From: Onthophagus taurus
Taxonomy: Eukaryota; Arthropoda; Insecta; Coleoptera; Scarabaeidae
Length of the DNA stretch: 64,000 nucleotides
Direction: 5' to 3'
Assembly: GCF_036711975.1 (NCBI RefSeq)
Contig: NC_091972.1
Span: forward strand, 27,533,001 to 27,597,000
The notes beneath the pieces are model-generated. The model ran no database searches. It saw only the letters and a program-made list of their open reading frames with translations, and was not told the DNA's origin. Both the position numbers and the translations under genes were made by a program. This document shows, in pieces, positions 14,401 to 53,178 of this stretch; the stretch's first letter is position 1; each line of letters opens with the position of its first letter.

Positions 14401-14538
14401 AATAACAAGGAAGTAGCTGTTAACATCAACAACCTTAAACCAGCATTTCTTTTAAAAGAAAATTCAACTTGTCACCACAGCGAGGCAATCAATTCTCATG
14501 ATATAAAAATTCAAAAAAAAGTTACTTTCAATTTTTAA
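11461..14538 (+). CDS. pol: CsRn1-like Gypsy Pol polyprotein, intact 1025 codons
   Basis: This uninterrupted frame encodes protease ([13 protein letters not shown], residues about 29-41), RT ([53 protein letters not shown]), RNase H ([44 protein letters not shown]), then integrase with an HHCC finger ([13 protein letters not shown]...CLRCQQTK), catalytic [15 protein letters not shown] and [10 protein letters not shown], and a short C-terminal domain. It lies in the -1 frame relative to the gag remnant, consistent with frameshift expression. All core catalytic residues are present. The element lacks a 5' LTR and most of gag, so the intact frame reflects recent insertion rather than current autonomy. 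Confidence 0.93.
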
Positions 14539-28956: not shown

Positions 28957-31900
28957 TCACATCAACCAGCCTAAGGATTTACCAAAGGCTAGGACGGCTC
29001 CTAGAGGTGCATTCCTGATGTCATCTGTGGTCGGCCATTCCTCCCCGAAGGTCCTCATTCTGAGGTCGGTCAGAGAGGGGCAGTCACACAAGATGTGTTT
29101 AACCGTCTCGTCATCCTGTTCACAGGCTCGACAGAGAGGGGAGTCAGCAAGCTTCATGTTTTGAAGGTGCTTGTTTACCTTACAGTGTCCCGTGAGGAGA
29201 CCTGTGGCAGTGCGAAGGGCACTTTTACCGAGCCCTACGAAGAACTGGGCTGTTGCGGCTGAAGGATATTTTAACAATTCCTTGGCGAGATGACAGCCCG
29301 GGGTACGGTCCCACCCGTTTAAAAATTTTTTGTGGGTAATGCGCTTGATTAACTCGATGTGAGTAGCTAAAGAGGGGGTAATTATCGGCTCGGGTGCACA
29401 GGGCGCTCTACCGGCAGCACGTTTGGCAAGCCTGTCAGCGTGGTTGTTACCCTTGGAGCCGGAATGCCCCTTAACCCACTGGATTCTGACACGATTGTAT
29501 TTCGCGGCCTCCTCCAGTGCTTTGTGACAATCCATTACTACTGCAGACGTTATAATAACTCTGCTTAGAGCTAAAAGAGATTGTTTACTGTCTGTGAAAA
29601 TAGTGAAGCACTTACCCCGCTTGTTGGATTCAACAATGCAGTCGGCAGCAAGTTTAATAGCAGTTAGTTCCGCTTGTATGACGGTGGTGCTAGACCCTAA
29701 AGGTTCCGAGAGGCGAATCGGGGGATCGTGAGAGAATACCCCGGCGCCTGCACCATTTCGTCCTTTTGAACCATCAGTGTAGATCTTAAAAGTTCTTCGT
29801 TCATCTACTACTGTGGGACTGACGTGGGTGAGGTACTTCTTTGAGAAAACATATTTTGCTGGTCTGTGATCAGTCTTACACTCGAGTAGGGGTGTGTCTA
29901 ACACTGCTTCCCTCCAGAGTGTTGAACTGCTGCCAGCGTCCTCATCCTTCATAGTTCCTACTGATTGTAGTCTTTTCATGGTTACCAACGCCACTTCCTG
30001 AATATGTAGGTTGAGTGGTGGTAAATTTAACATGATTTCCATGGCCGCGGTGGGGGTTGATCGCAGCGCACCTGTAACATATAGACACGCGAGTCTCTGT
30101 ATTCTATTAAGTGCAGTGGTGGCGGTAGACCTAGAAGTTCTAGTCCACCATACCACCGCACCGTACGTTAGCATTGGTCGAACAACGGCGGTGTAAATCC
30201 ACAGGGCTATCTTGGGAGACAGACCCCAAGTCCTCCCGACAGCCCTCCGGCACTGGCCGAAGGCGACACAAGCTTTATTAACTCTATTGTCTAGGTGGGA
30301 TTTCCACGTTAGTTTACTGTCTATTATTAAGCCCAAGTACTTAACTTCAGTAGACAGTTTAAGTGGAGTTTTAGCGAGCGTTGGCAATCTAGGATTGCCA
30401 ATGTTGCGCTTGCGTGTAAAAAGAACCATTTCTGTCTTCTTGGGATTGACGGAAAGGCATTGTTTATTACACCAGTTCTCAATTAGATTGAGTGCTTCCT
30501 GCATCCTATCGAGGAGTACGTTAGCGTACTTGCCTCTAATGAGGATTGTCAGGTCATCTGCGTAGCCAACGGTTTTAAAACCGGCTAGTTTTAGGCGTTT
30601 CATGAGGCTATCGAGGGTGAGATTCCACAAAAGTGGAGAAAGTACCCCCCCTTGCGGACAGCCTCTAGTAACAGCCCCTTGAAGAGTGGCTTGGCCAGCT
30701 CTTAGTTTGACGACCCTTTGTCTTAGAGTGCTCTCAATCCAGCCGCACAGGGCCAGAGGAACGTTATGCTCTAGCAAGGCGTCGTTAATTCCGGAGAAGG
30801 TAGTTTTATCAAAAGCTCCTTCCACGTCAATAAAAACCCCGAGGGCGGACTCTTTGTGGTCCAGCGCACCACCGACGAAACTGATCACTGAGTGAAGAGC
30901 CGTCAGCGTGGACTTTCCCTGGGTGTAAGCATGTTGATTAGAGTCTAGTGGCCTGCTGCGCAGACAAGAGTCTCTAATGTAACGATCGCAAAGCCTCTCC
31001 AACGTTTTCAATAGAAAGGAGGAGAGGCTAATTGGTCTATAGGACTTCGGAAGGAAGTAATCTTGCTTACCCGGTTTAGGTATAAAGTTGACCGTGACTT
31101 CACGCCAACCTCCCGGTACATAGCGGAACGCCAGGCATCCCTGGAAAATACTCTTCAGGTGCGGTAGCAGGTCATCCAGTCCCCATTGTAAGAGGGCCGG
31201 TGATATCCCGTCCGGTCCTGGAGTTTTGAACGGCGAGAACGTATTCACAGCCCACCGTATTTTCTCCTTCTTGCAGATGACTTTGGCCAGAAGCCATTCA
31301 TCAGCGGTAGGTACGTGAATTTTCTCTTGTTGGACATCGTTAAAGTTGTCCGAACCTGAGAAATGAACAGTCATTAAAAGCTGTAAACTGTCTTGAAGGT
31401 TGTCGGTATAAGAACCGTCTTCCTTCTTTAGTATGCCAATACGTTGAACAGGGCTCGAAGCAAGCACCTTTTTTAGGCGGGAGACCTCTGCAGAGGAAGT
31501 AATTTCCTCGCAAAAGTTCTTCCATGCTTCTCGCTTTTTTCGACGAATGGTTTTTTTAAAAGCTGACAGCTTCCTCTTGTAGAGGTGCCAGTCAGAGTCG
31601 ATCCTGGAGTCCTTAGCTTTGTTGAAGGCAGTCCGCACCTCTCGTTTCAGTGAGGCAAGCTCGGGGCACCACCAGATGGTAGCGCGCCCAGATACCTGCT
31701 CCCTACGGAGGGGACAAGCCTTTTTATAGGCAAGGATCAAGGAATTGTGTAGAGACTTTGAATAGTTCTCTAGCTCGCAGCTGTCCACTGGTTTTCGTCG
31801 ACCGAGTCTAGTCAATAACCCAGATAGTGTAGACCTGAACTTATCCACGTCCGTCCTTCTGGGATTGCGACTCAGTTTGTTTACGATCTTAGTGTTTCCA

Positions 31901-32604
31901 AGATCAAAAGTAATCCACCTGTGGTCCGACATTGAAACAACGTCGGAAACCCTCCAGTTGTGGATTGATTGTGAAATATTAAAGGAGGCTAGAGTGATAT
32001 CAATTACCGACTGACCTTTCGCAGTTACAAAGGTCGGTTCAGTGCCTCGGTTTAGTATGTCTAAATTACTGCAATAAATAAAGTCTAAGAGGGCCTTACC
32101 TCTAGTGTTGTCATTCGCACTACCCCAAGCCGTTGAGTGAGCGTTTGAATCGCAGCCGATGACAAGATTCCATTTACCTACCCTAGCGGCTTCAACCAGT
32201 CGCACCAATCCTTCGGATGGTGGCAGGTCCTCAATGGGGAGATAAACAGATGTCAGCAGAATGTCTGTTTCCTTCCGGTTGACAGTAGAACGTATCCTAA
32301 CGGTCGTCGCATCTGTGTCCGTGAATTGGGGCATCAGATAGCTCCGCACATGTTTAGGTACGTAAATGGCGGTTCGAATCTTCCCTTCCCTGGGGCAGCT
32401 GAAAATAGAACCGCTTAAACCACTGAGTCCGCAGACCCTGGATTTATTAACCCAGGGTTCTTGGATCAGTGCGATAACGTTACTCATCATATCGAGGTGA
32501 CGACAAAGGGTGGCAGTTGCAACCCTGCTATGATGCAGGTTGCACTGAACCACCGTCAGATCGTCCCCCTCCTCTGGTACATCACCTCTGCGTAGTCCCA
32601 TCAT
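28957..32604 (-). CDS. LINE ORF2: endonuclease, reverse transcriptase, RNase H, CCHC
   Basis: The 1215-codon protein holds an apurinic-type endonuclease (VVQCNLHHSRVAT, LIQEPWVNK, GCDSNAHSTAWG, SDHRWITFDL; residues about 15-235). RT follows with YRPISLSSFLLKTLERL, FIDVEGAFD and the catalytic GYADDLTIL (Tyr681), then RNase H with IYTDGSKGRNGAGAGVF (Asp944), IQAELTAIKLA, FTDSKQSL and NNHADRLAKRAA. A C-terminal CRACEQDDETVKHILCDC motif sits near residue 1160. A combined APE endonuclease and RNase H is typical of the I/LOA group. The start overlaps the ORF1 stop as ATGA, which suggests translation by termination-reinitiation. No stop or frameshift is seen. Confidence 0.94.
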   Translation of the reverse strand: MMGLRRGDVPEEGDDLTVVQCNLHHSRVATATLCRHLDMMSNVIALIQEPWVNKSRVCGLSGLSGSIFSCPREGKIRTAIYVPKHVRSYLMPQFTDTDATTVRIRSTVNRKETDILLTSVYLPIEDLPPSEGLVRLVEAARVGKWNLVIGCDSNAHSTAWGSANDNTRGKALLDFIYCSNLDILNRGTEPTFVTAKGQSVIDITLASFNISQSIHNWRVSDVVSMSDHRWITFDLGNTKIVNKLSRNPRRTDVDKFRSTLSGLLTRLGRRKPVDSCELENYSKSLHNSLILAYKKACPLRREQVSGRATIWWCPELASLKREVRTAFNKAKDSRIDSDWHLYKRKLSAFKKTIRRKKREAWKNFCEEITSSAEVSRLKKVLASSPVQRIGILKKEDGSYTDNLQDSLQLLMTVHFSGSDNFNDVQQEKIHVPTADEWLLAKVICKKEKIRWAVNTFSPFKTPGPDGISPALLQWGLDDLLPHLKSIFQGCLAFRYVPGGWREVTVNFIPKPGKQDYFLPKSYRPISLSSFLLKTLERLCDRYIRDSCLRSRPLDSNQHAYTQGKSTLTALHSVISFVGGALDHKESALGVFIDVEGAFDKTTFSGINDALLEHNVPLALCGWIESTLRQRVVKLRAGQATLQGAVTRGCPQGGVLSPLLWNLTLDSLMKRLKLAGFKTVGYADDLTILIRGKYANVLLDRMQEALNLIENWCNKQCLSVNPKKTEMVLFTRKRNIGNPRLPTLAKTPLKLSTEVKYLGLIIDSKLTWKSHLDNRVNKACVAFGQCRRAVGRTWGLSPKIALWIYTAVVRPMLTYGAVVWWTRTSRSTATTALNRIQRLACLYVTGALRSTPTAAMEIMLNLPPLNLHIQEVALVTMKRLQSVGTMKDEDAGSSSTLWREAVLDTPLLECKTDHRPAKYVFSKKYLTHVSPTVVDERRTFKIYTDGSKGRNGAGAGVFSHDPPIRLSEPLGSSTTVIQAELTAIKLAADCIVESNKRGKCFTIFTDSKQSLLALSRVIITSAVVMDCHKALEEAAKYNRVRIQWVKGHSGSKGNNHADRLAKRAAGRAPCAPEPIITPSLATHIELIKRITHKKFLNGWDRTPGCHLAKELLKYPSAATAQFFVGLGKSALRTATGLLTGHCKVNKHLQNMKLADSPLCRACEQDDETVKHILCDCPSLTDLRMRTFGEEWPTTDDIRNAPLGAVLAFGKSLGWLM

Positions 32605-33953
32605 TTTGGCGTCGAGGTGTCAATATCAGCGACCATGTCTGCAGGTGGCGAATCCAAAATGGACTCATCAGCCACCTCAGAGAGGGCTAGAGAGCCTGGC
32701 GTTGAAGGTGCCAAGTTGACGATTGTGACGTCGTCTTCCTTGGCGGACGGTGCCTCAGCGGCATCCATTTCCTCCACAGCTTTTTGGGTCCCAGTTGTGA
32801 CTGGGTCTTCAGCTACCGGGTCCTTGAGTCTACTGACTTTGGCCGTGAGCGTATTAAAGAGGTAGCATATTCTACCTTTGTTTTCCCTCAACCAATCGGC
32901 GTCCCTTTGACCAACTCCAAAGACGAGGAGTCGACCTTCACGGTCCTCTCTCACCTCGAAGCGGAAAAGGCACCAATTACGGATGTCGAGGTGCTTATTC
33001 TGTCCAATCAGGATAGCTAGGGTACGTTCTTTACCCTTGACTTCAACTCCATTGTCCGGGATCCAGAGTTGGACTCTGGATAAGGCCGGAAGTTCGGAGT
33101 CTTTTACCACGCTCAACCTTACCCCTTCAAGGGGTGGGAGCGAGTTAACCTCCGCCTTTAACCATTCCAACGAATGATCATTATTACAGGCGATCTTTAG
33201 GACCTGACCTGTATAAGTCATGGCTGAAAAGGTCGGCGTCGGTGCCTCCTCTTCAGGTTTATCAATGTTGATGCAGATGTCTCGAGCGAGCGCCTGCACC
33301 AAATTGTCTTTTATGGTATCAGCTTCCTCTTCGGTAAGTTTACCGACTTGGTTGAGGCCGTTGATAATCGCGACTTTAAGATGCCCTAGAAGCGCATCCT
33401 TATAGTCGGTCGTCTTGCGAGCCGCTTTCCCCTGGGGCTTGTCCTGCCTCGGCCTCTTCGTCACCTTCATAGAAGGTTCAGAAGAGTTGGCGGATCTCAG
33501 CCTTTTGGGACCCGCACCAGCCTCACCCCGGGTTCGGGCGTCGACCTGTCCTCTCGACTGCGGCGGCCGCGCCCTTGAGTCGCCCTGTCCGCTGGATTGC
33601 GGCGGTCGTACTCTTTTCGGGACAGCCACGCCACTAGTCGATTGCGGCGGTCGCGCTCTCGACCCGTCGTGGGTTTTCGGCCGTGCTCGGCCGCTTTCGC
33701 GTCTGGAGCCGCTGTGGGTGGGGGCCGTACCGGCCTCCTCTTCCCTAGCGAACCTCCGACTCATTGTCTCTCTAGTCTCTGCGCCGCGAGACCGATGGCG
33801 CGGACCGCGATGGCGGCGGTTACGACGGCGGACCTCGGTGAAGTCCTGCGCGTCGTCCGACCTTGCCGGCGGCGGCGGCTCATCGGCCCCTGAGGGCGTA
33901 CCACTAGCGAGTGGGGTAGGATTTTTGCTCTTAGAAGAGCTCATTGTGCCCAA
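32601..33953 (-). CDS. LINE ORF1 nucleic-acid-binding protein
   Basis: The 450-codon ORF1 begins with a Ser/Pro-rich and then strongly basic region (RRRNRRHRGPRHRSRG). It contains a small internal repeat SRARPPQS/RVRPPQS in three to four copies (about residues 95-135). The C-terminal half (AMTYTGQVLKIACNNDHSLE, then SRVQLWIPD) resembles the DUF4780 domain found in ORF1 of insect LINEs. No CCHC knuckle is visible. It is expected to coat element RNA in the ribonucleoprotein particle. Its TGA overlaps the ORF2 ATG. Another ATG three codons downstream is a possible alternative start. Confidence 0.88.
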   Translation of the reverse strand: MGTMSSSKSKNPTPLASGTPSGADEPPPPARSDDAQDFTEVRRRNRRHRGPRHRSRGAETRETMSRRFAREEEAGTAPTHSGSRRESGRARPKTHDGSRARPPQSTSGVAVPKRVRPPQSSGQGDSRARPPQSRGQVDARTRGEAGAGPKRLRSANSSEPSMKVTKRPRQDKPQGKAARKTTDYKDALLGHLKVAIINGLNQVGKLTEEEADTIKDNLVQALARDICINIDKPEEEAPTPTFSAMTYTGQVLKIACNNDHSLEWLKAEVNSLPPLEGVRLSVVKDSELPALSRVQLWIPDNGVEVKGKERTLAILIGQNKHLDIRNWCLFRFEVREDREGRLLVFGVGQRDADWLRENKGRICYLFNTLTAKVSRLKDPVAEDPVTTGTQKAVEEMDAAEAPSAKEDDVTIVNLAPSTPGSLALSEVADESILDSPPADMVADIDTSTPK

Positions 33954-35329: not shown

Positions 35330-35812
35330 TGCTCGGACGTTGTCGTGTTACCGAAACCCGGGGCGAACCTAACGTTCCCGCAAAGCTACAGGCCCATCAG
35401 TTTGCTTTCTTGTCTCGGCAAGGTATGCGAGAGGATCGTCCAGACGAGGCTACAAAGATCAATTCAAGATCTTAAGCTCGTTCAGGACGAACAGTTTGGT
35501 TCCTGACCCAAACATTCCACCGTACACCAGGTATTGCGACTTGTCGAATACATAACCGAAGGCTTCAATCGAAAGCAAAGCACTTGTGCGGCGCTTTTCG
35601 ATGTTGCCCAGGCGTTCGACAAAGTATGGCATGAAGGACTTTTGTTCAAAATGCTAGAAGCGGGCGTGCCCCTGGCGTTGGTTCAATTGATTGCGTCCTA
35701 TCTTGGCGGTGGGAAGGCGCGCATCAAATTGAACGGTACGCGTTCGACAGAGCGAATCCTAACTGCTGGCGTCCCTCAGGGGTCGTTGCTTTCACCGATC
35801 CTTCTTAAGTAA
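35330..35812 (+). pseudogene. Jockey-clade LINE RT fragment inside piggyBac
   Basis: The plus-strand reading KWKCSDVVVLPKPG, SYRPISLLSCLGKVCERIV, an in-frame TGA at 35504-35506 where the family has a basic or aromatic residue before PKHST, then CAALFDVAQAFDKVWHEGLL and GVPQGSLLSPILL covers RT blocks 1 to 4. It ends exactly at PQGSLLSPIL, before the catalytic FADD. Both borders are abrupt, with no poly(A) or TSD seen. Confidence 0.85.
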
Positions 35813-36658
35813 TCCTTCTTCTATTGACAGTTCTTCCCTCTTTTCGAAAAAAGAATGTAAATCAGTTGGAATCTCTTTCTTTTCTGGCCAATGTTGGTAA
35901 ACAAATCTAGATATTTTCTCAAATGTAGCATCCTTACTAGTGTCATCTTTTAATTTCCGCTTTTTCACAGCAAGATGTCGTAGTCTTAATCGTAATAGAC
36001 GACCTCGTTTTGGCCCACCTATATTTTCTATTTCAGAAGGTTCGTCATTATTAGTAGGTAGACGTGATAAAACATCTGTGGGTGCGTTGTCTTTTCCTTT
36101 CTGGTAAATGATTGAGTAATCGTAACTGTTCAAAATAATCGCCCATCGTAAAAGTCGGTTACTCGCTATTTTCGGTGTTTGACGATTTTCACCAAAAATC
36201 CTTTCAAGCGGTCTATGATCAGTGAATATTGAAAACTTACGACCATAGATATACTGGTGAAATGTTGTGACGGCGAAAATAATCGCCAATGCCTCTTTGT
36301 CTATCGTAGCATATCTTTTTTCAACATCTGTAAATTTTCTTAACGCATATGCAATTGGACGTAATTTTCTATCAGGGCATTCATGAAAAAGAACCGCACC
36401 TGCTCCTCTGTCACTCGCATCGCTCGTGATTATTATTCGCCATTGAGGGTTATAATGAATAAGAGTATCGGATGAAGACAGAATTAATTTTAAATCTTCA
36501 AAAACTTTTTTGTTCTCTTTAGACCAAATCCAATGTTGTCCTTTTTTTAAAAGTTCATATAGAGGTGTACATCTAACATAAAGATTTGGAATAAACTTTC
36601 CATAATATGAAATAGCTCCTAGAAACGATCGAAGTTCTGTCGTATTTGTCGTATAAAT
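35813..36658 (-). pseudogene. Gypsy RT thumb/RNase H fragment fused to piggyBac
   Basis: Minus-strand reading TTELRSFLGAISYYGKFIPN, then WSKENKKVFEDLK, RNase H blocks SDASDRGAGAVLFHE, KEALAIIFAVTTFHQYIYG, FTDHRPLERIF and NAPTDVLSRLP, then the start of the integrase linker. The reading frame is open and continuous with piggyBac transposase residues upstream (36943-36659), which creates a 383-codon chimeric frame. No LTR is present. Confidence 0.85.
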
Positions 36659-37500
36659 AAAGTATGATTTTGCATCTACAAGTGCAAATATTTTCAAACC
36701 ATAACGTCGTGCTGGCTTTTTGGGCATATATTGACGAAAAGCACAGCGACCCCTGAATACTTCTAACTTTTCGTCAATGGTGAGATATTCGCTTGGAGTA
36801 AACGAATCCTGGCTATTCTCAACGAATTTCTCAAATAATGCCCTCACTGCTGTCATCTTGTCAATATTTTTCCTTTCCGCACGATTATTTATGTTGTCAA
36901 AGCGTAAGCAAGACAGCACGAAAATGAACCGTTGCAAAGACATTGTTTCTCTGAATTAACTTATCCCAGCTCCATCTGTCGACCAAAGCTCCTCAAGGTT
37001 TAGCCCAGAACTTTTGAAAACTACTGCCAGATAGAGAAGTTCGAATAAAGCTCTTATTTCTGTTGCATTCGTATCCCGTACAACGTATTGATGATTTTCA
37101 TCGTAGCAAACAGATTTCTGTCGTATTTTTATATTGGTGCACATCACAATATCGTCCACCATATCAGAAATTATAAACTGATTGAAACATTCAATTGGTG
37201 TTTTAGCATTCTTGGTTGTACTTTTTATGCCTGGTAGGTGTGTGATTATATTCTCTGTACGCGTGCGAACATTCTTGGGAAAATCTTGTGAAGCCCATGT
37301 TGTACCATCCTTGCCTAAATATTTTCGACAGATTTTTGGTATTTCACTTTCAGTTACTTCTTCGCATCCTCCTCACCATCAGAGTTATGATTACTGTCAC
37401 ATACAAAATCAGATTCGTCTTCACTTTCGGAGCCAATGGGATTTTCGGCTTCTTCAACCTCTTCCCAGAGAGCTAATAATCGTGCCTATTCTTGTTCATA
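36659..37500 (-). pseudogene. piggyBac transposase, N-terminal part (copy A)
   Basis: Minus-strand reading contains KYLGKDGTTWASQDFPKNVR, then TKNAKTPIECFNQFISDMV-like sequence, TNATEIRALFELLYLAVVFK, a stop/frame break near 36956, and LQRFIFVLSCLRFDN...IDKMTAVRALFEKFVENSQDSF up to DAKSYF. An acidic N-terminus (ESEDESDFVCD-like) is readable near 37400. It lacks everything after DAKSYF, where the Gypsy fragment starts. Confidence 0.85.
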
Positions 37501-43184: not shown

Positions 43185-43197
43185 GATTCACTAGTAC

Positions 43198-43985
43198 TGT
43201 AACAAACCGCATTTTGGGATTCGAAAGCGATTAAAAAAAAATAATAAAACGCAATACAGGCAGAACTTTGTAATTTAATTACGAAGTTGCGTCTTGAGAA
43301 CCGAGGGTCCAGACTAAATACTACGTAGGCGGTTCTGGCAGGAATGTGCCGAGGTGGCAGTTAGAGTAGATGGAGCAGGGGAGAAATGAAGAAAAAATCG
43401 GGGAGTCGGTTACGGGATTGGAACAGAAAAGCATCGGGCGAAACCGGGAAATTAAAGTTTTTGTTGTGTTTTTAAATTCGAGTCGTGCGATTTGAACTTA
43501 TAGCAATTTAGTTATAAAATTCGTTGAATTGGATTCTCTTTCTTCGATGAATATTTTACTTTAACAAACGGGTAAGCGTTATTAAAATCTTAAACTTCCG
43601 ATTTCTCATTGAACCTGCTAACCACCTCGGCAAATTTCGTAATGATGTTGTTGAATAGCTTATGTCATGTAATTTTTACTTTTTAAAACCTTTGTCAGTT
43701 GTTTTTTTTTATATATAATATAATACGTTCTTGTTCAAAAATAAAGCAAACTTATTCTTTAGCAGTGAAATTTCGTTTTCTTTCAATCTATTTTTATTCT
43801 TAATTTCAAATTACTGCCGTTTGCTTTCAAGTGAACGAATGCAGTGTGCCAAACCCTAACTCAGTCATTGCTAGCTATCAAGAAAACGGTAGTGCGTGGA
43901 CAGTTGGGTACGCGAGCCGCTCCGTGGACCTAGCTAGGAAACCCACTACGGGAAACGAGAAGTTCTCGAGAGCTAGTTTGTGACA
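43198..43985 (+). repeat. 5' LTR of the macro-domain Gypsy
   Basis: It starts TGTAACAAACCGC and ends CTAGTTTGTGACA. It includes an A/T-rich TATATATAAT stretch (about 43711-43720) and AATAAAG (43740-43746), candidate promoter and polyadenylation signals. GTAC precedes it. Confidence 0.95.
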
Positions 43986-44233: not shown

Positions 44234-45349
44234 ATGAACGCCGATGATAACGTAGCAGAAATTCCGGGCGAAGCTGAAGGTTCTATTCTAACAACACCAA
44301 TGATGGTTACACCGATTTCTTTAGGAATGTTAGCAGGAACGGTAGAATCTTTTTCAGGTCGAGAAAATGTTAAACTGTATTTTGAAAGGTTAGAGCAACG
44401 TGCGATCTTAGATAATTGGAATGAAACACAAATGCTTCATATTGTTAGGTATCGATTGAGTGGAGAGGCTTATAAATTTTATAAGGCGGAAACAAACTTA
44501 CAGAGTAATCAGGTCACATATGTAGAATTACGGGAAAAATTAATTAAAAAGTTTACCCCGCGAAAATTACCGGGAGAAGCACTAGGGAAATTAATGCGCG
44601 CGTTCCAAAAACACGATGAATCCGTGTCGTCTTACGTAACCAGTATAAAGTCTATCGCGAATGAGATTATCGAGGAGGACAAAGCGAAAGTAACAGCAGC
44701 AGAATTACCGGGAGTTATTATAAAAATTAATGAATTAGCACTAAGTCAATTTAAAGTGGGAATGAAACGTGAATTAAGTCAAATGGTAGGAACGTTACTT
44801 ATGCGTGAAACGGATTTAACTCTAGATAAAGCGGAAGAGATCGCATCATTTGAAGAATTAAATCAGGCTACAAACCGAAATCGTCCAAATCGAATTAATA
44901 TAGGAGCGGTGGATACGACTACTAGATTATGTTACAGATGCGGAAAGTCAGGTCATTTTGCGAAATTTTGTAATGCACAGACAACCGTGTTTAATTGTTA
45001 TAATTGCGGAAAACCCGGTCATATTAGTAAACAATGTAGGTTACCTTCAAATAAAATGCAACCGAACTACGACCAAAGGCGTGACCTCCCACGCCGTGTT
45101 AGTTTTCAAGAGGGTCATTCATCCGATAAGGTAAACAACCGCGACCGAAGAAATTTTTATTACCAACAGCGAGATTATCAAAACGAACCGCGACGTAATG
45201 TAAACGATAACAATTATACGGGCCGACAATCGCCCCCGCAGGTTACTAGATCACCGCAAATTCCCGCAAATAACAGGTACAATGAGACGAACTCTTTAAA
45301 CGCATATCGTCCTGCGGTGAATACCCGAACCGCAGGAGACTCGAATTAA
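44234..45349 (+). CDS. gag: Gag of the macro-domain Gypsy
   Basis: The 371-codon capsid precursor forms the retrotransposon particle. The capsid-like middle (SFSGRENVKLYFERLEQRA, LSGEAYKFYKA, LREKLIKKFTPRKLPGEAL, VSSYVTSIKSIA) is a retrotransposon Gag domain. Two CCHC knuckles bind RNA: CYRCGKSGHFAKFC (from about residue 233) and CYNCGKPGHISKQC about nine residues later. The basic tail is rich in Arg, Asn and Gln. The start is the first ATG after the leader. The gag end overlaps the upstream extension of the protease frame, which is in the -1 frame, so -1 frameshifting is a likely route to Gag-Pro. Confidence 0.95.
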   Translation: MNADDNVAEIPGEAEGSILTTPMMVTPISLGMLAGTVESFSGRENVKLYFERLEQRAILDNWNETQMLHIVRYRLSGEAYKFYKAETNLQSNQVTYVELREKLIKKFTPRKLPGEALGKLMRAFQKHDESVSSYVTSIKSIANEIIEEDKAKVTAAELPGVIIKINELALSQFKVGMKRELSQMVGTLLMRETDLTLDKAEEIASFEELNQATNRNRPNRINIGAVDTTTRLCYRCGKSGHFAKFCNAQTTVFNCYNCGKPGHISKQCRLPSNKMQPNYDQRRDLPRRVSFQEGHSSDKVNNRDRRNFYYQQRDYQNEPRRNVNDNNYTGRQSPPQVTRSPQIPANNRYNETNSLNAYRPAVNTRTAGDSN

Positions 45350-45417: not shown

Positions 45418-46221
45418 ATGAGACTCATTTTTGAAACACCTTTTTCTATTAAATTGTTCAATAAAAACAAACCAATAACGATGTTAGTAGACACCGGTTC
45501 TCCTGTTACGATAATTAAACATTCTTGTGTAATTTCGGAAGCAATTAAACCTATGTCAGGAGATTTTAGTATTTCGGGAATAACGGGACACGGAATTGAC
45601 ATGCTAGGTACGACTGAGTTAAATTTTTCATTGGGGAATGAATCGAATTTAGGAGATTTCTCGTGCTATGTATGTTTGGACAATTTGCCTTTAACCACAG
45701 ATGGAGTATTGGGACGCGATTTTATGGAATTTCACAATGTAATTATTGATTTTAGTAAAGGTAGCCTAAATGTAGGAGGTATTGATGTTAGATTTTCAAG
45801 TATCATGAACGTCAATTTGGGGTCGCAGCGTATTGTGTCTACAGATTCCCTTGAATGTAGAGAATCCACCACATCAGGTTTGGGTGTAGGTCAGGTAGAT
45901 AATTTGGAACTCGCGAATGATTATGTATCAGAATTATCAACGGAAATAAATTTAATCGAACCGCAAGTAACGAGGACGGAGTATCTAATAAAGAAACGTG
46001 AAGTCGAAGAAAAGTACGTAACCGAGGAGACGAATCAACGAACGAGGTTTATGCCACTCGAGGTAAATGTTTTGGTAGAAGAGTTTGGGGAGTTAAGTTC
46101 AGATAGCAACGATGACTATGAAACCGGGTATCGCCGAATGATCGATGTAAATGTGGACAGGGATTGTCACGATAAAAGAATAGAAGAAGAAGAAAAAAAA
46201 AATAGAGAAATTAAAGACTAA
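45418..46221 (+). CDS. pro: Retropepsin frame of the macro-domain Gypsy
   Basis: The frame encodes an aspartic protease with the active site MLVDTGSPVTII (Asp25 from the first ATG) and the second conserved block GVLGRDFME. A polar, acidic linker follows and ends EEEEKKNREIKD. Retropepsin cuts Gag-Pol within the particle. The frame is open upstream of the ATG at 45418 and overlaps the end of gag, so a frameshift product may start earlier. It ends at 46221, just past a run of ten A (46193-46202), and pol lies in the +1 frame. The A run is a possible slippage site joining Pro to Pol. Confidence 0.88.
   Translation: MRLIFETPFSIKLFNKNKPITMLVDTGSPVTIIKHSCVISEAIKPMSGDFSISGITGHGIDMLGTTELNFSLGNESNLGDFSCYVCLDNLPLTTDGVLGRDFMEFHNVIIDFSKGSLNVGGIDVRFSSIMNVNLGSQRIVSTDSLECRESTTSGLGVGQVDNLELANDYVSELSTEINLIEPQVTRTEYLIKKREVEEKYVTEETNQRTRFMPLEVNVLVEEFGELSSDSNDDYETGYRRMIDVNVDRDCHDKRIEEEEKKNREIKD
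46193..46202 (+). promoter_or_regulatory. Candidate slippery A10 run between protease and pol frames
   Basis: Ten consecutive A lie in the only stretch where the protease frame and the upstream-open pol frame overlap. Slippage on A runs can change the reading frame. This is inference from position. Confidence 0.4.
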
Positions 46222-46285: not shown

Positions 46286-49200
46286 GTGACGCAGAAGTCA
46301 CGAATTGTTGCAGAAAATAATGAGTTAAGGGAATGCGAAAATGAAGAAGAAATTAAGGATGAAACTAATATGAAAGATACGAAAGAAAACGAAATAAACA
46401 ATGATAAAAACTGTCAATGTAATCCTGTTATCACCGTTGAAGAAGATATCGTTGAACCGTTTACAGAGAAGGTGTTAGCGGTTGACGTGCGTAATAATAA
46501 TAAAAAGAACGACATTGTAATTGAATCAAGTAAAACGCCCTTTCATCCAAATATATTAATAGGAAGATGTGCTGTTCCAAGAGGGGAAAAACCACGAGTA
46601 TTGGTTGCAAACATAGGAGAAGAATCAATAACGATCCCAAAGCATACAGAGATAGCTAGAGCGTATAGTTGTATAATACCGAATAAGAAGGTTAATCCAG
46701 AAGTAAAAAGCGAGATGGTTGCAATGATAAGAGAAAACGGAGAGACATCAACATTTTTGGAATCGATCTCATTGGCTCATCTATCAGAAACAGACAAAGA
46801 GAAAGTTGAAAAATTGTTATTGGATTATCGAGATATTTTCGACAATGGTGACGAAAGGTTTACGAAAACTCACAAGGTCAAACATCAAATTATTACTGAG
46901 AATGTACCACCAATTAGTAAACGTCCATATAGAGTATCAGTTCATCAACGAGAGTTCTTACAGGAAGAAATAGATAAGCTGTTAAAGAAAAATATTATTA
47001 AACCATCTCATTCACCCTGGTCGGCGCCGGTTGTAATCGTTAACCGGCAGATGTCAGACGGATCGATAAAACCCCGAGTATGTATAGATTACCGAGGACT
47101 CAACGCGGTAACTAAGAAAGATGTGTACCCGTTGCCGAATCTGCAAGAGACAGTAGATGTGTTAGGGAAGACTAATCTGTTTAGCGTGTTTGATGTAGCG
47201 TCGGCGTACCATCAAATAGAAGTGGAGAAGAATGACCGAGAAAAAACAGCTTTCTCCACGCCGTTCGGGCACTATGAGAGCAACCGAATGATGTTTGGGC
47301 TAGTAAATGCCCCCGCGACGTTTCAGCGCTTCATGAATTTTACATTTTCGGGATTGTTAGGTACTCATTGCCTCGTCTATTTAGATGATATAATAATTTT
47401 CAATGGAACGGGTGTCGACGATCATTTGAACAAACTACAAACTATTTTTGATAGAATCCGAGATGCAGGACTAAAACTTAAGATGGAGAAAAGCCAGATC
47501 GCGGTCCCAAAGGTGTCTTATCTTGGTCACATAATATCTGCCCAAGGCGTTCAACCGGATCCGGGAAAAATCAACTCGATACAGAATTTCCCCGTTCCAA
47601 AAAACGTTAGGAATTGTAGAGAATTTTTAGGGCTGGTGGGATGGTATAGGAAATTTATACCGGACTTTACCCGATTAGCGGCCCCAATTACGAAGTTAAC
47701 GCGCAAAGATGTCGCGTTTAAATTCGAAAAAGAGCAATTGGAAGCGGTGGAAAGCTTAAAGGCCGCGATAACATCAGAATCGGTATTAATTTTCCCAGAT
47801 TTCAATGAGCCTTTCATCTTGGCTACAGACGCGAGTAACACAGGATTAGGTGCTATACTTAGCCAGGTGAGAGAGGGAAATGAACGCCCTGTGGCTTTCG
47901 CTAGTAGAGGACTAAAGAAGGCTGAGCTAAACTATTCGACTACCGAAAAAGAGTGTCTTGCTGTCATATTTGGGATAAAGCAATTTCGGTGCTACTTATA
48001 TGGACGCCGTTTCACTATCATAACAGACCACAGACCATTGAAATGGTTGATGAATATCAAAGACCCGAGCTCGAGACTAGCACGATGGGCTTTAATGCTA
48101 ATGGAGTATGACTTCGAGATTATCCACAGACCGGGCCGAAAGCATGGAAACGTGGATGCTCTCAGCCGAAACAGTATAGTTTCCCTAATCCGAAAGGATG
48201 AGAAAGATAAGTTATGCATTAATGAAGTAGAGGGAAATTTGTTTGATGCTCCCCAAGGTTGGGTATTAGCTCATTGCGTTTCGGCGGATTTTGCGATGGG
48301 AGCTGGTATTGCAAAGGAATTTAAAAAGCGATTTGGCTCCGTTGAAAAATTAAGATCCGAGGAGAAAGGAGTTGGTGACATAGTACCGCAAATAGCGGAG
48401 AAACGAAAAATATACCATTTAATTTCAAAGGACGAATACTACCATAAACCAACGTACCACATGTTGAGACAGTGTCTAGAAACGTTACGGGAGGAAATGA
48501 ATAAATCTGGGGAGAGATATTTGGCAATACCCAGAATAGGATGTGGTCTCGATAAACTAAAGTGGAGCCTAGTTAAAGAAGAATTAAGAGAATGTTTTGA
48601 GGGAACGAATACCATGATAATGGTATATAAATTACCTTTCGTTAAAAATAAAACACTATGTAAAATACAGGAAAATATAGCAACGCCAGTTTGGGATAAA
48701 AATGTTATTTTGAAAGAACAAGATAAGGACGAGTTTTGCATTGAAATACGGGATTCGCTTTCATCAAACAAAGATCTTAGGGATAGTTATTTCATAGATA
48801 ATGATAAGCTCTTATTTAAAACTGATGAGTTAGGAAAAGAAGTACTAGTGTTGCCGAAATCATTTGTGCAGAAGGCTTTGCATGATTACCACGATTTACC
48901 ATTTGCAGGTCATGGCGGTCAAGCGAAAACATTAGCTTTACTTAAGGATAGGGTATTTTGGCCGTCTATGACACGTGATGTTAAAAAGTATTGTTCGAAT
49001 TGTGAGTCATGCAATAGACGTAAAACTTCCCCCCATATGTCTAGAGCACCCTTGCAAAAATTTACAACTGTTCGAAAGCCATTCGAAAGAAGTTCAATGG
49101 ACATAGTGGGTCCGTTACCAACAACATACAAAGGAAACAAGTATATACTTACGTTCCAGGACTATTTCACCAAATATTTAGAGGCAGTAGCCTTACCTGA

Positions 49201-50365
49201 TCAGAAGGCTGATACTGTGGCTCGAGCTTTTGTAACGCAAATAGTAAGTCGCCACGGTACTCCTCTGCAGTTGCTCACCGATCAGGGTACAAATTTTGTG
49301 TCGTCACTCATGAAGGAAATTTGTAAGCTATTAAATATCGACAAAATACAAACCACACCGTATCATCCCGAGTGCAATGGTCTTATCGAGAGAAGTCATC
49401 GGGTGATCAAGGACGTACTATCTCACTATGTTAAAAAGGACCAAAGAACCTGGGATGAATGGCTACCCTATGTTCTTCTGGCGTACAGATCAACGGTGCA
49501 TAGTAGTACGGGCTATACCCCCCACTTTTTGTTATACGGCAGGGAAATGGAATTACCAGTGGATGTTTTTCTCCGACCCTCCAGGTGTAAGTACGACTGT
49601 GATGAGAACTATGTGACGGAATTGGCAGCGCGAATGAACCACGTGTATGAGACGGTTTTTGAAAGTTTGCAGCTTGCCGCTCGAAGACAGGCTGAGTATT
49701 ATAATAAAAGAAGTAAGCACAGAGATTTTTACGTAGGAGAGTTGGTACTCTTAAAAGACACATCTATAAAACCAGGTCTAAATAGAAAATTAGCCCAACC
49801 TTGGATAGGACCGTACATGATTACAAAAATTAAAGGACCAGAGAACTACGAAATTACATCAGTAAACGGAAAGCTAAAATCTATTGTACATAGTAATAGA
49901 TTGAAATCATTTCGAACTAATAAAGACTCAACCCCGAAAGAGTGTAAAAGCCTAGATTCGAATGTACACCTCGAAGAAATAAACGAAGACCGGTATGTTG
50001 ATCCACATATGCCGATAATCAGTTTACATACACCGGATCTGACTTTTCGAAAAAATACAGGAGTAACAGATTTACTAAATGAGACCCCCTGCCCAAAAAT
50101 TAATATATGTCCGAGACGATTAATTCTAGAAGAGAGTGATGATACTAGTACAGCAGAAAATCTGGAAGGGAAAAATGAATGTATGAGTAAGGAGTTGTTG
50201 GAGTCAATAGCTGAACCTTCTGAAAACCCTTCAGAAATAGAAAGAGAACGTGAGGACGATAGCATTATTATTAAGGCACCAGAATTAATAGATGAACCCC
50301 TTGAAGAACCGTTGGCAATACGACGGGAGAGGAGAGCCATAAAACTTCCAGCTAGGTATAGGTAA
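46286..50365 (+). CDS. pol: Pol polyprotein with macro domain: RT, RNase H, macro, integrase
   Basis: The 1359-codon open frame has a spacer domain, then RT (RVCIDYRGLNAVT, FSVFDVASAYHQIEV, YLDDIII at Tyr365), RNase H (ATDASNTGLGAIL with Asp515, KECLAVIFGIKQF, ITDHRPLKW, NVDALSR), a macro domain (residues about 645-783, listed separately) and integrase. The integrase has an HHCC finger from His866 (CSNCESCNRRK), catalytic Asp939 (SMDIVGPL), Asp999 (LLTDQGTNF) and Glu1035 (GLIERSHRVIK), and a C-terminal GPY-type module (QPWIGPYMITKIKGPENYEI). A long acidic tail ends in RRERRAIKLPARYR. The frame is open before 46286 (which is a GTG), so translation probably enters by frameshift. No disabling change is seen. 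Confidence 0.95.
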   Translation: MTQKSRIVAENNELRECENEEEIKDETNMKDTKENEINNDKNCQCNPVITVEEDIVEPFTEKVLAVDVRNNNKKNDIVIESSKTPFHPNILIGRCAVPRGEKPRVLVANIGEESITIPKHTEIARAYSCIIPNKKVNPEVKSEMVAMIRENGETSTFLESISLAHLSETDKEKVEKLLLDYRDIFDNGDERFTKTHKVKHQIITENVPPISKRPYRVSVHQREFLQEEIDKLLKKNIIKPSHSPWSAPVVIVNRQMSDGSIKPRVCIDYRGLNAVTKKDVYPLPNLQETVDVLGKTNLFSVFDVASAYHQIEVEKNDREKTAFSTPFGHYESNRMMFGLVNAPATFQRFMNFTFSGLLGTHCLVYLDDIIIFNGTGVDDHLNKLQTIFDRIRDAGLKLKMEKSQIAVPKVSYLGHIISAQGVQPDPGKINSIQNFPVPKNVRNCREFLGLVGWYRKFIPDFTRLAAPITKLTRKDVAFKFEKEQLEAVESLKAAITSESVLIFPDFNEPFILATDASNTGLGAILSQVREGNERPVAFASRGLKKAELNYSTTEKECLAVIFGIKQFRCYLYGRRFTIITDHRPLKWLMNIKDPSSRLARWALMLMEYDFEIIHRPGRKHGNVDALSRNSIVSLIRKDEKDKLCINEVEGNLFDAPQGWVLAHCVSADFAMGAGIAKEFKKRFGSVEKLRSEEKGVGDIVPQIAEKRKIYHLISKDEYYHKPTYHMLRQCLETLREEMNKSGERYLAIPRIGCGLDKLKWSLVKEELRECFEGTNTMIMVYKLPFVKNKTLCKIQENIATPVWDKNVILKEQDKDEFCIEIRDSLSSNKDLRDSYFIDNDKLLFKTDELGKEVLVLPKSFVQKALHDYHDLPFAGHGGQAKTLALLKDRVFWPSMTRDVKKYCSNCESCNRRKTSPHMSRAPLQKFTTVRKPFERSSMDIVGPLPTTYKGNKYILTFQDYFTKYLEAVALPDQKADTVARAFVTQIVSRHGTPLQLLTDQGTNFVSSLMKEICKLLNIDKIQTTPYHPECNGLIERSHRVIKDVLSHYVKKDQRTWDEWLPYVLLAYRSTVHSSTGYTPHFLLYGREMELPVDVFLRPSRCKYDCDENYVTELAARMNHVYETVFESLQLAARRQAEYYNKRSKHRDFYVGELVLLKDTSIKPGLNRKLAQPWIGPYMITKIKGPENYEITSVNGKLKSIVHSNRLKSFRTNKDSTPKECKSLDSNVHLEEINEDRYVDPHMPIISLHTPDLTFRKNTGVTDLLNETPCPKINICPRRLILEESDDTSTAENLEGKNECMSKELLESIAEPSENPSEIEREREDDSIIIKAPELIDEPLEEPLAIRRERRAIKLPARYR
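48218..48634 (+). other. TARG1/OARD1-like macro domain inside Gypsy Pol
   Basis: About 139 residues between RNase H and integrase form a complete macro domain. The opening GNLFDAPQGWVLAHCVSADF, then AMGAGIAKEFKKRFG, is the ADP-ribose-binding first loop. LISKDEYYHKPTYHMLRQCL and YLAIPRIGCGLDKLKW supply the later binding loops. These blocks are diagnostic of the ALC1-like branch that includes human TARG1 (OARD1/C6orf130), which removes ADP-ribose from Glu/Asp. In TARG1, catalysis uses a Lys (Lys84) and an Asp (Asp125); the equivalents here appear to be Lys715 (in LISKDE) and Asp756 (in GCGLDK). Frame and length are intact. The activity is inferred and was not tested. Confidence 0.92.
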
Positions 50366-50856
50366 AGTATAAGGTATACAGGTAAAAAAAAAAAAGAAAA
50401 AAATAAATAAATAACTAATAAATAAATAAAAATATTAATATTAAAATAAGTAAATTAATAAGTTAAATACTAAAATTAAAAAGAAAATAAATTTATTTAT
50501 TTTTTTTTTAAATAATAAGAAAAATATATAATTAATAGCTTTTATTATTGTCTATTTTGTTGTTGATTACTAAACACCGGAAAATCGGATTTTTGTTTTT
50601 GTTTGTTTCAGCGCTCTTAACTACTTTATTGGCGATTGGAGCCTACATAAATATAGGATTAACAATTTATTATCGCATACGATTGTAGCGCCCGTAGTGT
50701 TAATATTAGTCTCATATCGCTAAAAAAAAAAAAAAGTTGGAGATTGTTCACAAATAAGGTCCAATTATGTAGAAAACATGTTACAAGTGCAAATAGTCCA
50801 AAGAGCCCGGATTCACCGACAAATCGTATATAGAAACACATAAAAATCGCTTATTA
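50366..50856. other. A-rich spacer after pol
   Basis: Positions 50380-50530 are a low-complexity A/T-rich tract (AAATAAATAA words). No gene was identified before the envelope-like remnant. Confidence 0.6.
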
Positions 50857-51699
50857 TTGGCCCCGTTATCACCAACCACCGTTAGTTTGCTCGCTAAGAA
50901 TGAAACGAGTTATGTCGGCCGTGCAATCGGAGAAGTCCTGTACATATTGAAATGTGTACCAAAGAGAGTGCAAGTAAGAAAAACGTATACTTGTTACCAT
51001 GAACTTCCTGTCTCTGATACGGATAACCGGTCCTATTTTGAGTCGCCAATGACACATGTACTCCTGGACTATGCAGACCAGGTTGACCGCAACCTCATTA
51101 GTTCACCAATGTATCAGATTGAAAAGCCCTGGGTAGCCTTAACTCCACTGCAGGTATCCCAGACACCACCTGATGGACTTCTACCTTATGAAGATTCAGA
51201 AATCAAAATTTAGTACCATTATGAATTTGGGAGTGGCCGAAATTTATAACAACGAAGACGTCAGACAAGCACAAGAACTAGTACAAGTCGGCTTGGAACG
51301 ATCAGCTATAAACAATGTCATTATTAGAAAAATCCAGGGAAAGAAGACAGAAAAATAAGGACTGGATTCAACTATTTCATGCGGAAGAGTTGCGTAAATT
51401 TGCTAAGAGCACGTTATCGCACGAGTGATTGTTTTATTGTGTTTCGTAAAGGGACTCGCTAGCGTGATATTGAATGGCTACGCAATATTTAAAACCTTGG
51501 GATGAGGTATCGTCATCTTGGCCAGTTGTGGAAAAATTTTACGATGTGGCTTTTTAATCAGAGAAGGGGTGAGGATCTTGCTTCGCCAGAAACTCCGACT
51601 AACATAGTTCCTGAGGCAACCAATTCCACAAGCCCTGAAGTGATGGTTTCAAATATATATTCTGAGGTACCGACCTCTCCAAGTTGGATGCGGAAATAA
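50857..51699 (+). pseudogene. Envelope-like remnant
   Basis: Three successive plus-strand reading segments (50857-51213, 51173-51358 and 51502-51699) lie in different frames where env would be. The first contains Cys-Tyr and Pro/Trp-rich spacing (ILKCVPKRV, TCYHELPVSD, WVALTPLQV) resembling insect envelope-like proteins found in some LTR elements. The second resembles a downstream heptad-type region. No signal peptide or transmembrane segment remains recognisable, and the segments are broken by frame changes and stops. I read it as a decayed env acquired by this lineage. A spliced arrangement cannot be excluded. Confidence 0.45.
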
Positions 51700-52386: not shown

Positions 52387-53174
52387 TGTAACAAACCGCA
52401 TTTTGGGATTCGAAAGCGATTAAAAAAAAATAATAAAACGCAATACAGGCAGAACTTTGTAATTTAATTACGAAGTTGCGTCTTGAGAACCGAGGGTCCA
52501 GACTAAATACTACGTAGGCGGTTCTGGCAGGAATGTGCCGAGGTGGCAGTTAGAGTAGATGGAGCAGGGGAGAAATGAAGAAAAAATCGGGGAGTCGGTT
52601 ACGGGATTGGAACAGAAAAGCATCGGGCGAAACCGGGAAATTAAAGTTTTTGTTGTGTTTTTAAATTCGAGTCGTGCGATTTGAACTTATAGCAATTTAG
52701 TTATAAAATTCGTTGAATTGGATTCTCTTTCTTCGATGAATATTTTACTTTAACAAACGGGTAAGCGTTATTAAAATCTTAAACTTCCGATTTCTCATTG
52801 AACCTGCTAACCACCTCGGCAAATTTCGTAATGATGTTGTTGAATAGCTTATGTCATGTAATTTTTACTTTTTAAAACCTTTGTCAGTTGTTTTTTTTTA
52901 TATATAATATAATACGTTCTTGTTCAAAAATAAAGCAAACTTATTCTTTAGCAGTGAAATTTCGTTTTCTTTCAATCTATTTTTATTCTTAATTTCAAAT
53001 TACTGCCGTTTGCTTTCAAGTGAACGAATGCAGTGTGCCAAACCCTAACTCAGTCATTGCTAGCTATCAAGAAAACGGTAGTGCGTGGACAGTTGGGTAC
53101 GCGAGCCGCTCCGTGGACCTAGCTAGGAAACCCACTACGGGAAACGAGAAGTTCTCGAGAGCTAGTTTGTGACA
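52387..53174 (+). repeat. 3' LTR of the macro-domain Gypsy
   Basis: The 788-bp copy is equal in length to the 5' LTR, with no difference that I could find by eye. It is followed by GTAC (53175-53178). Confidence 0.95.
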
Positions 53175-53178
53175 GTAC

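Follow-up and report, generated by a model that had tools for sequence, protein, structure and literature searches.

A TARG1-type macro domain in the Pol of Ty3/Gypsy retrotransposons from the beetle Onthophagus taurus and other hosts

The macro domain and the element that carries it

The stretch of DNA analyzed here (hereafter the window) comprises 64,000 nucleotides of the scarabaeid beetle Onthophagus taurus (contig NC_091972.1, positions 27,533,001 to 27,597,000). It contains a Ty3/Gypsy retrotransposon whose pol open reading frame (ORF) encodes, between RNase H and integrase, a macro domain of the type found in TARG1 (also called OARD1 or C6orf130). An earlier reading of the letters alone, referred to below as the sequence-only reading, had singled out this domain, which is defined by the following features:

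48218..48634, + strand: TARG1-type macro domain, pol residues 645-783 (translation, phmmer, Pfam, AlphaFold2 model and Foldseek)
48428..48430, + strand: codon of Lys715, which pairs with catalytic Lys84 of human TARG1 (phmmer/profile alignment)
48551..48553, + strand: codon of Asp756, which pairs with Asp125 of human TARG1 (phmmer/profile alignment)

The 139 codons at 48218-48634 translate into a complete macro domain in which every motif listed by the sequence-only reading is present. When the PDB was searched with phmmer, the best match was human TARG1/C6orf130 (8.9e-34, query residues 3-139); five distinct PDB sequences of this protein scored about 1e-33, and the next entry, 5m31, identified in the Foldseek result as the macro domain of DarG, followed at 6e-7. 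The generic Macro model of Pfam, against which the window pol was searched in pieces, gave a modest score that lies above its cut-off (25.7 bits, cut-off 22). The AlphaFold2 model of the macro stretch (P0001), computed from a 78-row alignment of P0001 and 77 of the 120 hits listed, has a mean predicted local distance difference (pLDDT) of 93.8 and a predicted template modeling (TM) score of 0.87. Foldseek matched this predicted model best to the TARG1-ADP-ribose structure 4j5s (TM score 0.96, root-mean-square deviation 1.0, 45% identity) and second best to DarG (5m3e, TM score 0.88, 26% identity). Both checks suggested with the sequence-only reading, by profile and by structure prediction, thus agree with its assignment. 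Residues 715 and 756, its candidate catalytic positions, are indeed Lys and Asp; counted along the printed alignment, they pair with Lys84 and Asp125 of human TARG1, the latter of which I take to be the second member of the catalytic pair. Being best matched by TARG1 in sequence and in predicted fold across the whole domain, pol 645-783 belongs to the TARG1-type macro domains. Lys84 of human TARG1 is described as catalytic in PMC8501950.

The other features of the element are these:

43194-43197 and 53175-53178: 4-bp target-site duplication GTAC, on both outer sides
43198..43985, + strand: 5' long terminal repeat (LTR), 788 bp, TGTAAC...TGTGACA, 788/788 identical to the 3' LTR
44234..45349, + strand: gag ORF, 371 residues, with CCHC knuckles (ORF list, Pfam)
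45418..46221, + strand: protease ORF, 267 residues, in a frame different from that of pol in the window copy (ORF list, Pfam)
46286..50365, + strand: pol ORF, 1359 residues, no internal stop (ORF list)
47069..47536, + strand: reverse transcriptase (RT) core, RVT_1 in two adjoining matches (Pfam)
47798..48109, + strand: RNase H, RT_RNaseH, 2e-42 (Pfam)
48854..49030, + strand: integrase zinc-binding domain H2C2 (Pfam)
49076..49369, + strand: integrase core rve (Pfam)
49808..49906, + strand: integrase p58 C-terminal domain (Pfam)
50663..51355, + strand: env-like gene remnants that match Monjiviricetes_fusion (PF24664) in three pieces spread over two frames, one above the curated cut-off and two below
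52387..53174, + strand: 3' LTR, 788 bp (identity to the 5' LTR)

In Pfam terms, the order along the element is gag knuckles, protease, RVT_1, RNase H, Macro, Integrase_H2C2, rve and p58_C. An RT-RNase H pair that precedes the integrase, LTRs and a target-site duplication mark it as Ty3/Gypsy. Since the LTRs, which had looked alike to the sequence-only reading, are identical at all positions and are flanked by GTAC, insertion of the window copy was probably recent. The description of Pol as intact holds for the pol ORF, which is unbroken over its 1359 codons with the macro domain between RNase H and integrase. It does not hold for the whole copy, which lacks the unbroken coding of an autonomous Gypsy element: protease and pol lie in different frames, and an env-like gene that had gone unmentioned is fragmented. 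The macro domain lies in an open frame of 1692 codons in 17 of the 22 full-length near-identical copies of the window element (hereafter the window family), against 1393 in the window copy; L028, one of these 17, has an internal stop that was read through. Nine ORF pieces from the interval that separates pol from the 3' LTR were searched. Three of them, in two frames, matched the model of the Monjiviricetes fusion glycoprotein, one at 7.6e-27 (94 bits, cut-off 27) and two below the cut-off (1.7e-4 and 0.0042), and model positions 45-345 have no match in the window copy. The env-like gene is thus related to the fusion glycoproteins of negative-strand RNA viruses (Monjiviricetes), and it is broken in the window copy. 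Two more Gypsy pols lie in the window, one at 11461-14535 (+ strand) as a 1025-residue ORF without a macro match and one at 5259-7796 (- strand) in pieces.

Relatives in the same genome and in public proteins

A protein search of the genome that harbors the window (290.8 Mb) gave 73 matches. Besides the 22 full-length copies at 98-100% identity, they comprise one match at 67%, groups at about 49-50%, 45-46% and 38-42%, a weak group at about 20%, and fragments. Forty-three loci were searched with queries for RNase H, the macro domain and integrase. The order RNase H-macro-integrase was found, with some frame changes and partial matches, in L008 and L028 of the window family, in L032-L037 and L042-L048, and in a degenerate group described below. 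In L039, L040, L041, L054 and L056 the macro domain precedes RNase H by about 1.0-1.1 kb, and L040 reads in a single frame as protease-macro-RT-RNase H. L030 matches the macro and integrase queries, with no match to the RNase H query upstream; L038, L050, L051 and L055 match the macro query alone; L069 and L070, which had entered through Pfam Macro, match none of the three. In L079 an ordinary short linker, devoid of a macro domain, precedes the integrase.

A search of a protein collection with the window macro stretch returned six hits (P0002-P0007). P0006 is a Gypsy pol; P0002-P0005 are Gag-protease proteins in which the macro domain follows the protease and which contain neither RNase H nor integrase, one cluster comprising 87 member sequences; P0007, judged by its Pfam domain and sequence, is not a retroelement protein. 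A further search from P0006 added 12 Gypsy proteins, which brought their number to 17: 11 with the order RNase H-macro-integrase, four of the Gag-protease-macro type, one, P0138, with the macro domain at the C-terminus behind the integrase (residues 994-1132), and P0139, which ends inside the macro domain. P0130 and P0139 are from the aphid Uroleucon formosanum, and one of the 11 RNase H-macro-integrase proteins is from this named aphid. The organism field of P0134 ends at 'Cin', presumably Cinara, also an aphid. P0137 and P0138 fall below the Pfam Macro cut-off and yet score 180 and 163 bits with a profile built on the domains of TARG1 and of the elements, so that Pfam Macro alone misses some macro domains.

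A chance insertion in one copy is ruled out, since the domain is in frame in other copies, in divergent families and in public Gypsy proteins; a segment confined to the window copy, or lying in another frame in its relatives, which the sequence-only reading had named as contrary evidence, is not what was found. The arrangement it described, a single one in one element, is real and is narrower than the facts: the domain occupies at least three positions, has relatives in an aphid and in public contigs, and occurs in families that have lost the catalytic loops. Each arrangement seen is a fusion with Pol or Gag-Pro (RNase H-macro-integrase, protease-macro-RT, Gag-protease-macro, integrase-macro). 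The idea that such neighbors would turn up on every contig with a macro domain was rejected: none of 37 macro-bearing IMG/VR loci matched the RNase H or integrase queries in flanks of up to 2-2.5 kb, and no related retroelement was found in the viral contigs searched. As a separate observation, TARG1-like macro domains occur in 35 IMG/VR loci (L080-L114) with no Gypsy RNase H or integrase match within reach.

Conservation, decay and proposed role of the domain

The Lys and Asp are both present in all 21 scored copies of the window family (the remaining one, L028, contains a stop and was left unscored). Among divergent copies of the same genome, after frameshifted or partial ones had been set aside, Lys is found in 15/15 and Asp in 14/15; in the public Gypsy proteins, Lys is found in 17/17 and Asp in the 16 of 16 that reach that position. 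The pair is also present in each of 18 divergent element domains, a hand-chosen set outside which L046, P0133 and P0139 lie. Mean identity in this set is 46% (range 27-86%), and both catalytic columns are among its 13 invariant ones. The ratio of nonsynonymous to synonymous substitution rates (dN/dS) was estimated with the GY+F3X4 model in IQ-TREE; for the same four elements it is 0.029 in the macro domain, 0.027 in integrase and 0.013 in RNase H. Judged from these sequence comparisons, the macro domain is under purifying selection across families. The claim that selection has kept the domain, and the dN/dS comparison proposed to check it, are thereby borne out across families, where the domain has a dN/dS similar to that of integrase and stays in frame in relatives.

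The most likely explanation, to which I assign a probability of roughly 0.6, is that a captured TARG1-type domain has been kept as an enzyme. Traveling with RT and integrase, it would act in cis as a mono-ADP-ribosyl hydrolase and clear ADP-ribose from the element's proteins or its complementary DNA (cDNA). The parts of Pol are packaged together in LTR elements. As one of these parts, the domain would enter the particle with RT, RNase H and integrase and would strip ADP-ribose placed by host PARPs on the element's replication complex; five matches to PARP catalytic domains were found in the host. The substrate could be Glu or Asp residues of Gag, Pol or attached host proteins or, about equally, the cDNA itself, whose gaps and ends during reverse transcription would resemble the substrate of TARG1 at telomeres. 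Human TARG1 removes ADP-ribose both from Glu/Asp and from DNA, where it reverses thymidine-linked ADP-ribose (PMC8501950), and at telomeres it removes the modification that PARP1 places on single-stranded DNA at unligated Okazaki fragments and overhangs (PMC11102865). It is because TARG1 acts on protein and DNA alike, and because the Pol domain would sit on the cDNA together with RT, RNase H and integrase, that a cleaning role in cis is proposed.

In coronaviruses and alphaviruses, macro domains probably remove ADP-ribose from antiviral or stress proteins of the host. By analogy, the Gypsy domain might be released by the protease and act in trans on such host proteins. Its several positions in the polyprotein would suit a module excised by the protease, PARP-type domains are present in the host, and the macro domain evolves about twice as fast as integrase. 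All positions observed, however, keep it beside the virion enzymes and not in a separate ORF, and this alternative is very unlikely.

Several observations weigh against an enzymatic role. Larger sets give a dN/dS of 0.061 for the macro domain (7 elements) as against 0.036 for integrase (6 elements), and macro dN is about twice integrase dN (0.215 vs 0.096; 0.489 vs 0.211). Synonymous sites are saturated between families, and NG86 dS is undefined for many pairs; the saturation means that the comparison between domains weighs more than the dN/dS values themselves. Within the window family, nonsynonymous and synonymous differences number 4 and 1 in the macro domain (21 copies), 0 and 5 in RNase H (22 copies), and 2 and 4 in integrase (21 copies), and a 4:1 count is by itself no sign of recent constraint. 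L046, an otherwise normal copy, has Asn in place of the catalytic Asp. Finally, in the degenerate families, Lys is replaced in 4/5 scored copies, which indicates that catalysis is dispensable for some relatives; Asp is still found in 5/5, so that in these families the Asp column alone proves little.

The degenerate stretch lies between RNase H and integrase in L058, L059, L061, L063, L064 and L065-L067 and, less clearly, in L073 and L078. It keeps the second half of the fold, the AHCVS, GAGIA and GCGLD loops being lost. Six spacers were compared singly with a TARG1 profile by hhalign, with 50 shuffles per spacer as control. Five (L058, L067, L065, L078 and L073) scored 86.8-99.1% with E values of 4e-6 to 4e-19, against a lowest shuffled E of 0.0058; that of L076 gave 0.083, on par with its own shuffles. 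No support as TARG1 relatives was obtained for L074 and L075, whose spacers gave E 0.24 and 0.13, or for L077 and L079, whose short linkers gave E 0.49 and 0.25, which leaves five clear relatives among the ten spacers tested. Where it persists in this form, the domain probably remains as a folded spacer or a binding module.

Such remnants at the same place, together with the 4:1 count, are what would be seen if the captured module were a structural passenger, tolerated as a spacer, with motifs retained through common origin and decay complete in several lineages. A passenger would not, however, be expected to keep the catalytic pair in 18 of 18 chosen domains with a mean identity of 46%, nor a dN/dS near that of integrase, and this explanation is improbable. 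Persistence without Lys would also suit a domain that steers integration by binding ADP-ribose where PARPs have marked DNA breaks or chromatin, hydrolysis being incidental, much as chromodomains steer integration in chromoviruses. In the window family the domain lies between RNase H and integrase, and in P0138 it follows integrase, locations that might favor such tethering. On the other side, both catalytic residues are invariant in the chosen set and would be unneeded for binding alone, and in the L040 family the domain lies before RT, far from integrase; tethering is an unlikely alternative to hydrolysis in cis.

Origin, known systems and neighboring sequences

A TARG1 module has been captured into the Pol of Ty3/Gypsy elements and is present in several lineages and in more than one host. 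In a 25-row tree built from RNase H and integrase segments (L042, L058, L061 and L067, which lack one segment, were left out), the window element, L032, L046 and the protease-macro-RT family of L040 group together (support 97), and another clade (99) unites the aphid-type elements with the degenerate families and with L074, L075 and P0137. In the macro tree (51 rows), whose deep nodes are weak, the aphid-type domains group with P0137 and L042 (94), and the domain of P0138 groups with host TARG1 (92), which makes a separate capture likely in that case. Approximately unbiased tests, with constrained trees built by fast search, rejected none of the following at 5%: monophyly of all 18 element domains (p = 0.168), of those without P0138 (0.091), of the 15 without P0138, P0002 and P0005 (0.30) or of these 15 plus P0138 (0.278), and placement of host TARG1 inside the 15 (0.0502). 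The gap from the macro domain to the start of the integrase query, computed by hand, is about 72-79 residues in the window clade and about 7 in the degenerate families; in the public RNase H-macro-integrase proteins it is 10-20 residues in 10 of 11 and about 150 in P0137. These different junction lengths suggest separate insertions or loss of a linker. The host TARG1-like gene (L051:1511-1965) is predicted to have its macro domain interrupted by one short intron of the GT-AG type, and the 3.6 kb examined contain no match to RNase H or integrase.

The domain resembles TARG1/OARD1 in its fold and identity, in the Lys84/Asp125 pair and in the GAGIA and GCGLD loops; TARG1, however, is a free-standing cellular protein, whereas the Gypsy version is an intron-less module inside Pol whose activity is predicted. 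The element shares with Ty3/Gypsy (Metaviridae) the LTRs, the 4-bp duplication, Gag, protease and the order RT-RNase H-integrase, and differs in the extra domain between RNase H and integrase, found in relatives before RT or behind integrase. DarG, the antitoxin of DarTG, offers the next-best fold after TARG1 and reverses thymidine-linked ADP-ribose on DNA (PMC8501950), but is a bacterial antitoxin. Alphavirus and coronavirus macro domains (3gqo, 3gpg, 3ejg) are structural matches by Foldseek, but far weaker ones (15-18% identity), and belong to RNA-virus proteins. Macro-domain ORFs occur in fish endogenous retroviruses (Basta et al. 2009, as cited in PMC4977317). These too are retroelements with a macro domain, whose type the passage in PMC4977317 leaves unstated; they are epsilon-like viruses of ray-finned fish with additional ORFs, and not Gypsy Pol fusions. 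The sequence-only reading knew of no Gypsy lineage with this arrangement, and none of the papers listed by searches of an open-access full-text library described a Gypsy Pol with a macro domain (subscription papers and preprints lay outside the search); the arrangement is nonetheless already present in databases, the source name of P0134 listing 'Integrase, catalytic core, Macro domain, Retropepsins'.

The domain, which related elements of an aphid carry as well, suggests a means of reversing a host modification that had not been described before. If active, it would be an ADP-ribosyl hydrolase fused to the replication enzymes of a retroelement and repeatedly kept, moved or recaptured, and PARP ADP-ribosylation by the host would touch LTR-element replication in animals. 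Apparently active and naturally degenerate versions stand side by side in one genome, which makes the involvement of PARPs directly testable, and the degenerate families supply an origin for part of the RNase H-integrase spacer in several Gypsy families. A broader and rather doubtful extension is that a large arthropod Gypsy supergroup descends from TARG1-capturing ancestors, that the RNase H-integrase spacers of many families are remnants of the domain, and that the active versions would be the first retroelement erasers of ADP-ribose on their own cDNA, revealing cDNA ADP-ribosylation as a host barrier.

Two other mobile sequences lie in the window. On the - strand, an ORF of a non-LTR-type retroelement (28960-33953), which encodes endonuclease, RT and RNase H, adjoins a DUF4780 ORF, and another ORF (35795-36943, - strand) combines a DDE_Tnp_1_7 transposase fragment and an RT_RNaseH domain in a single frame.
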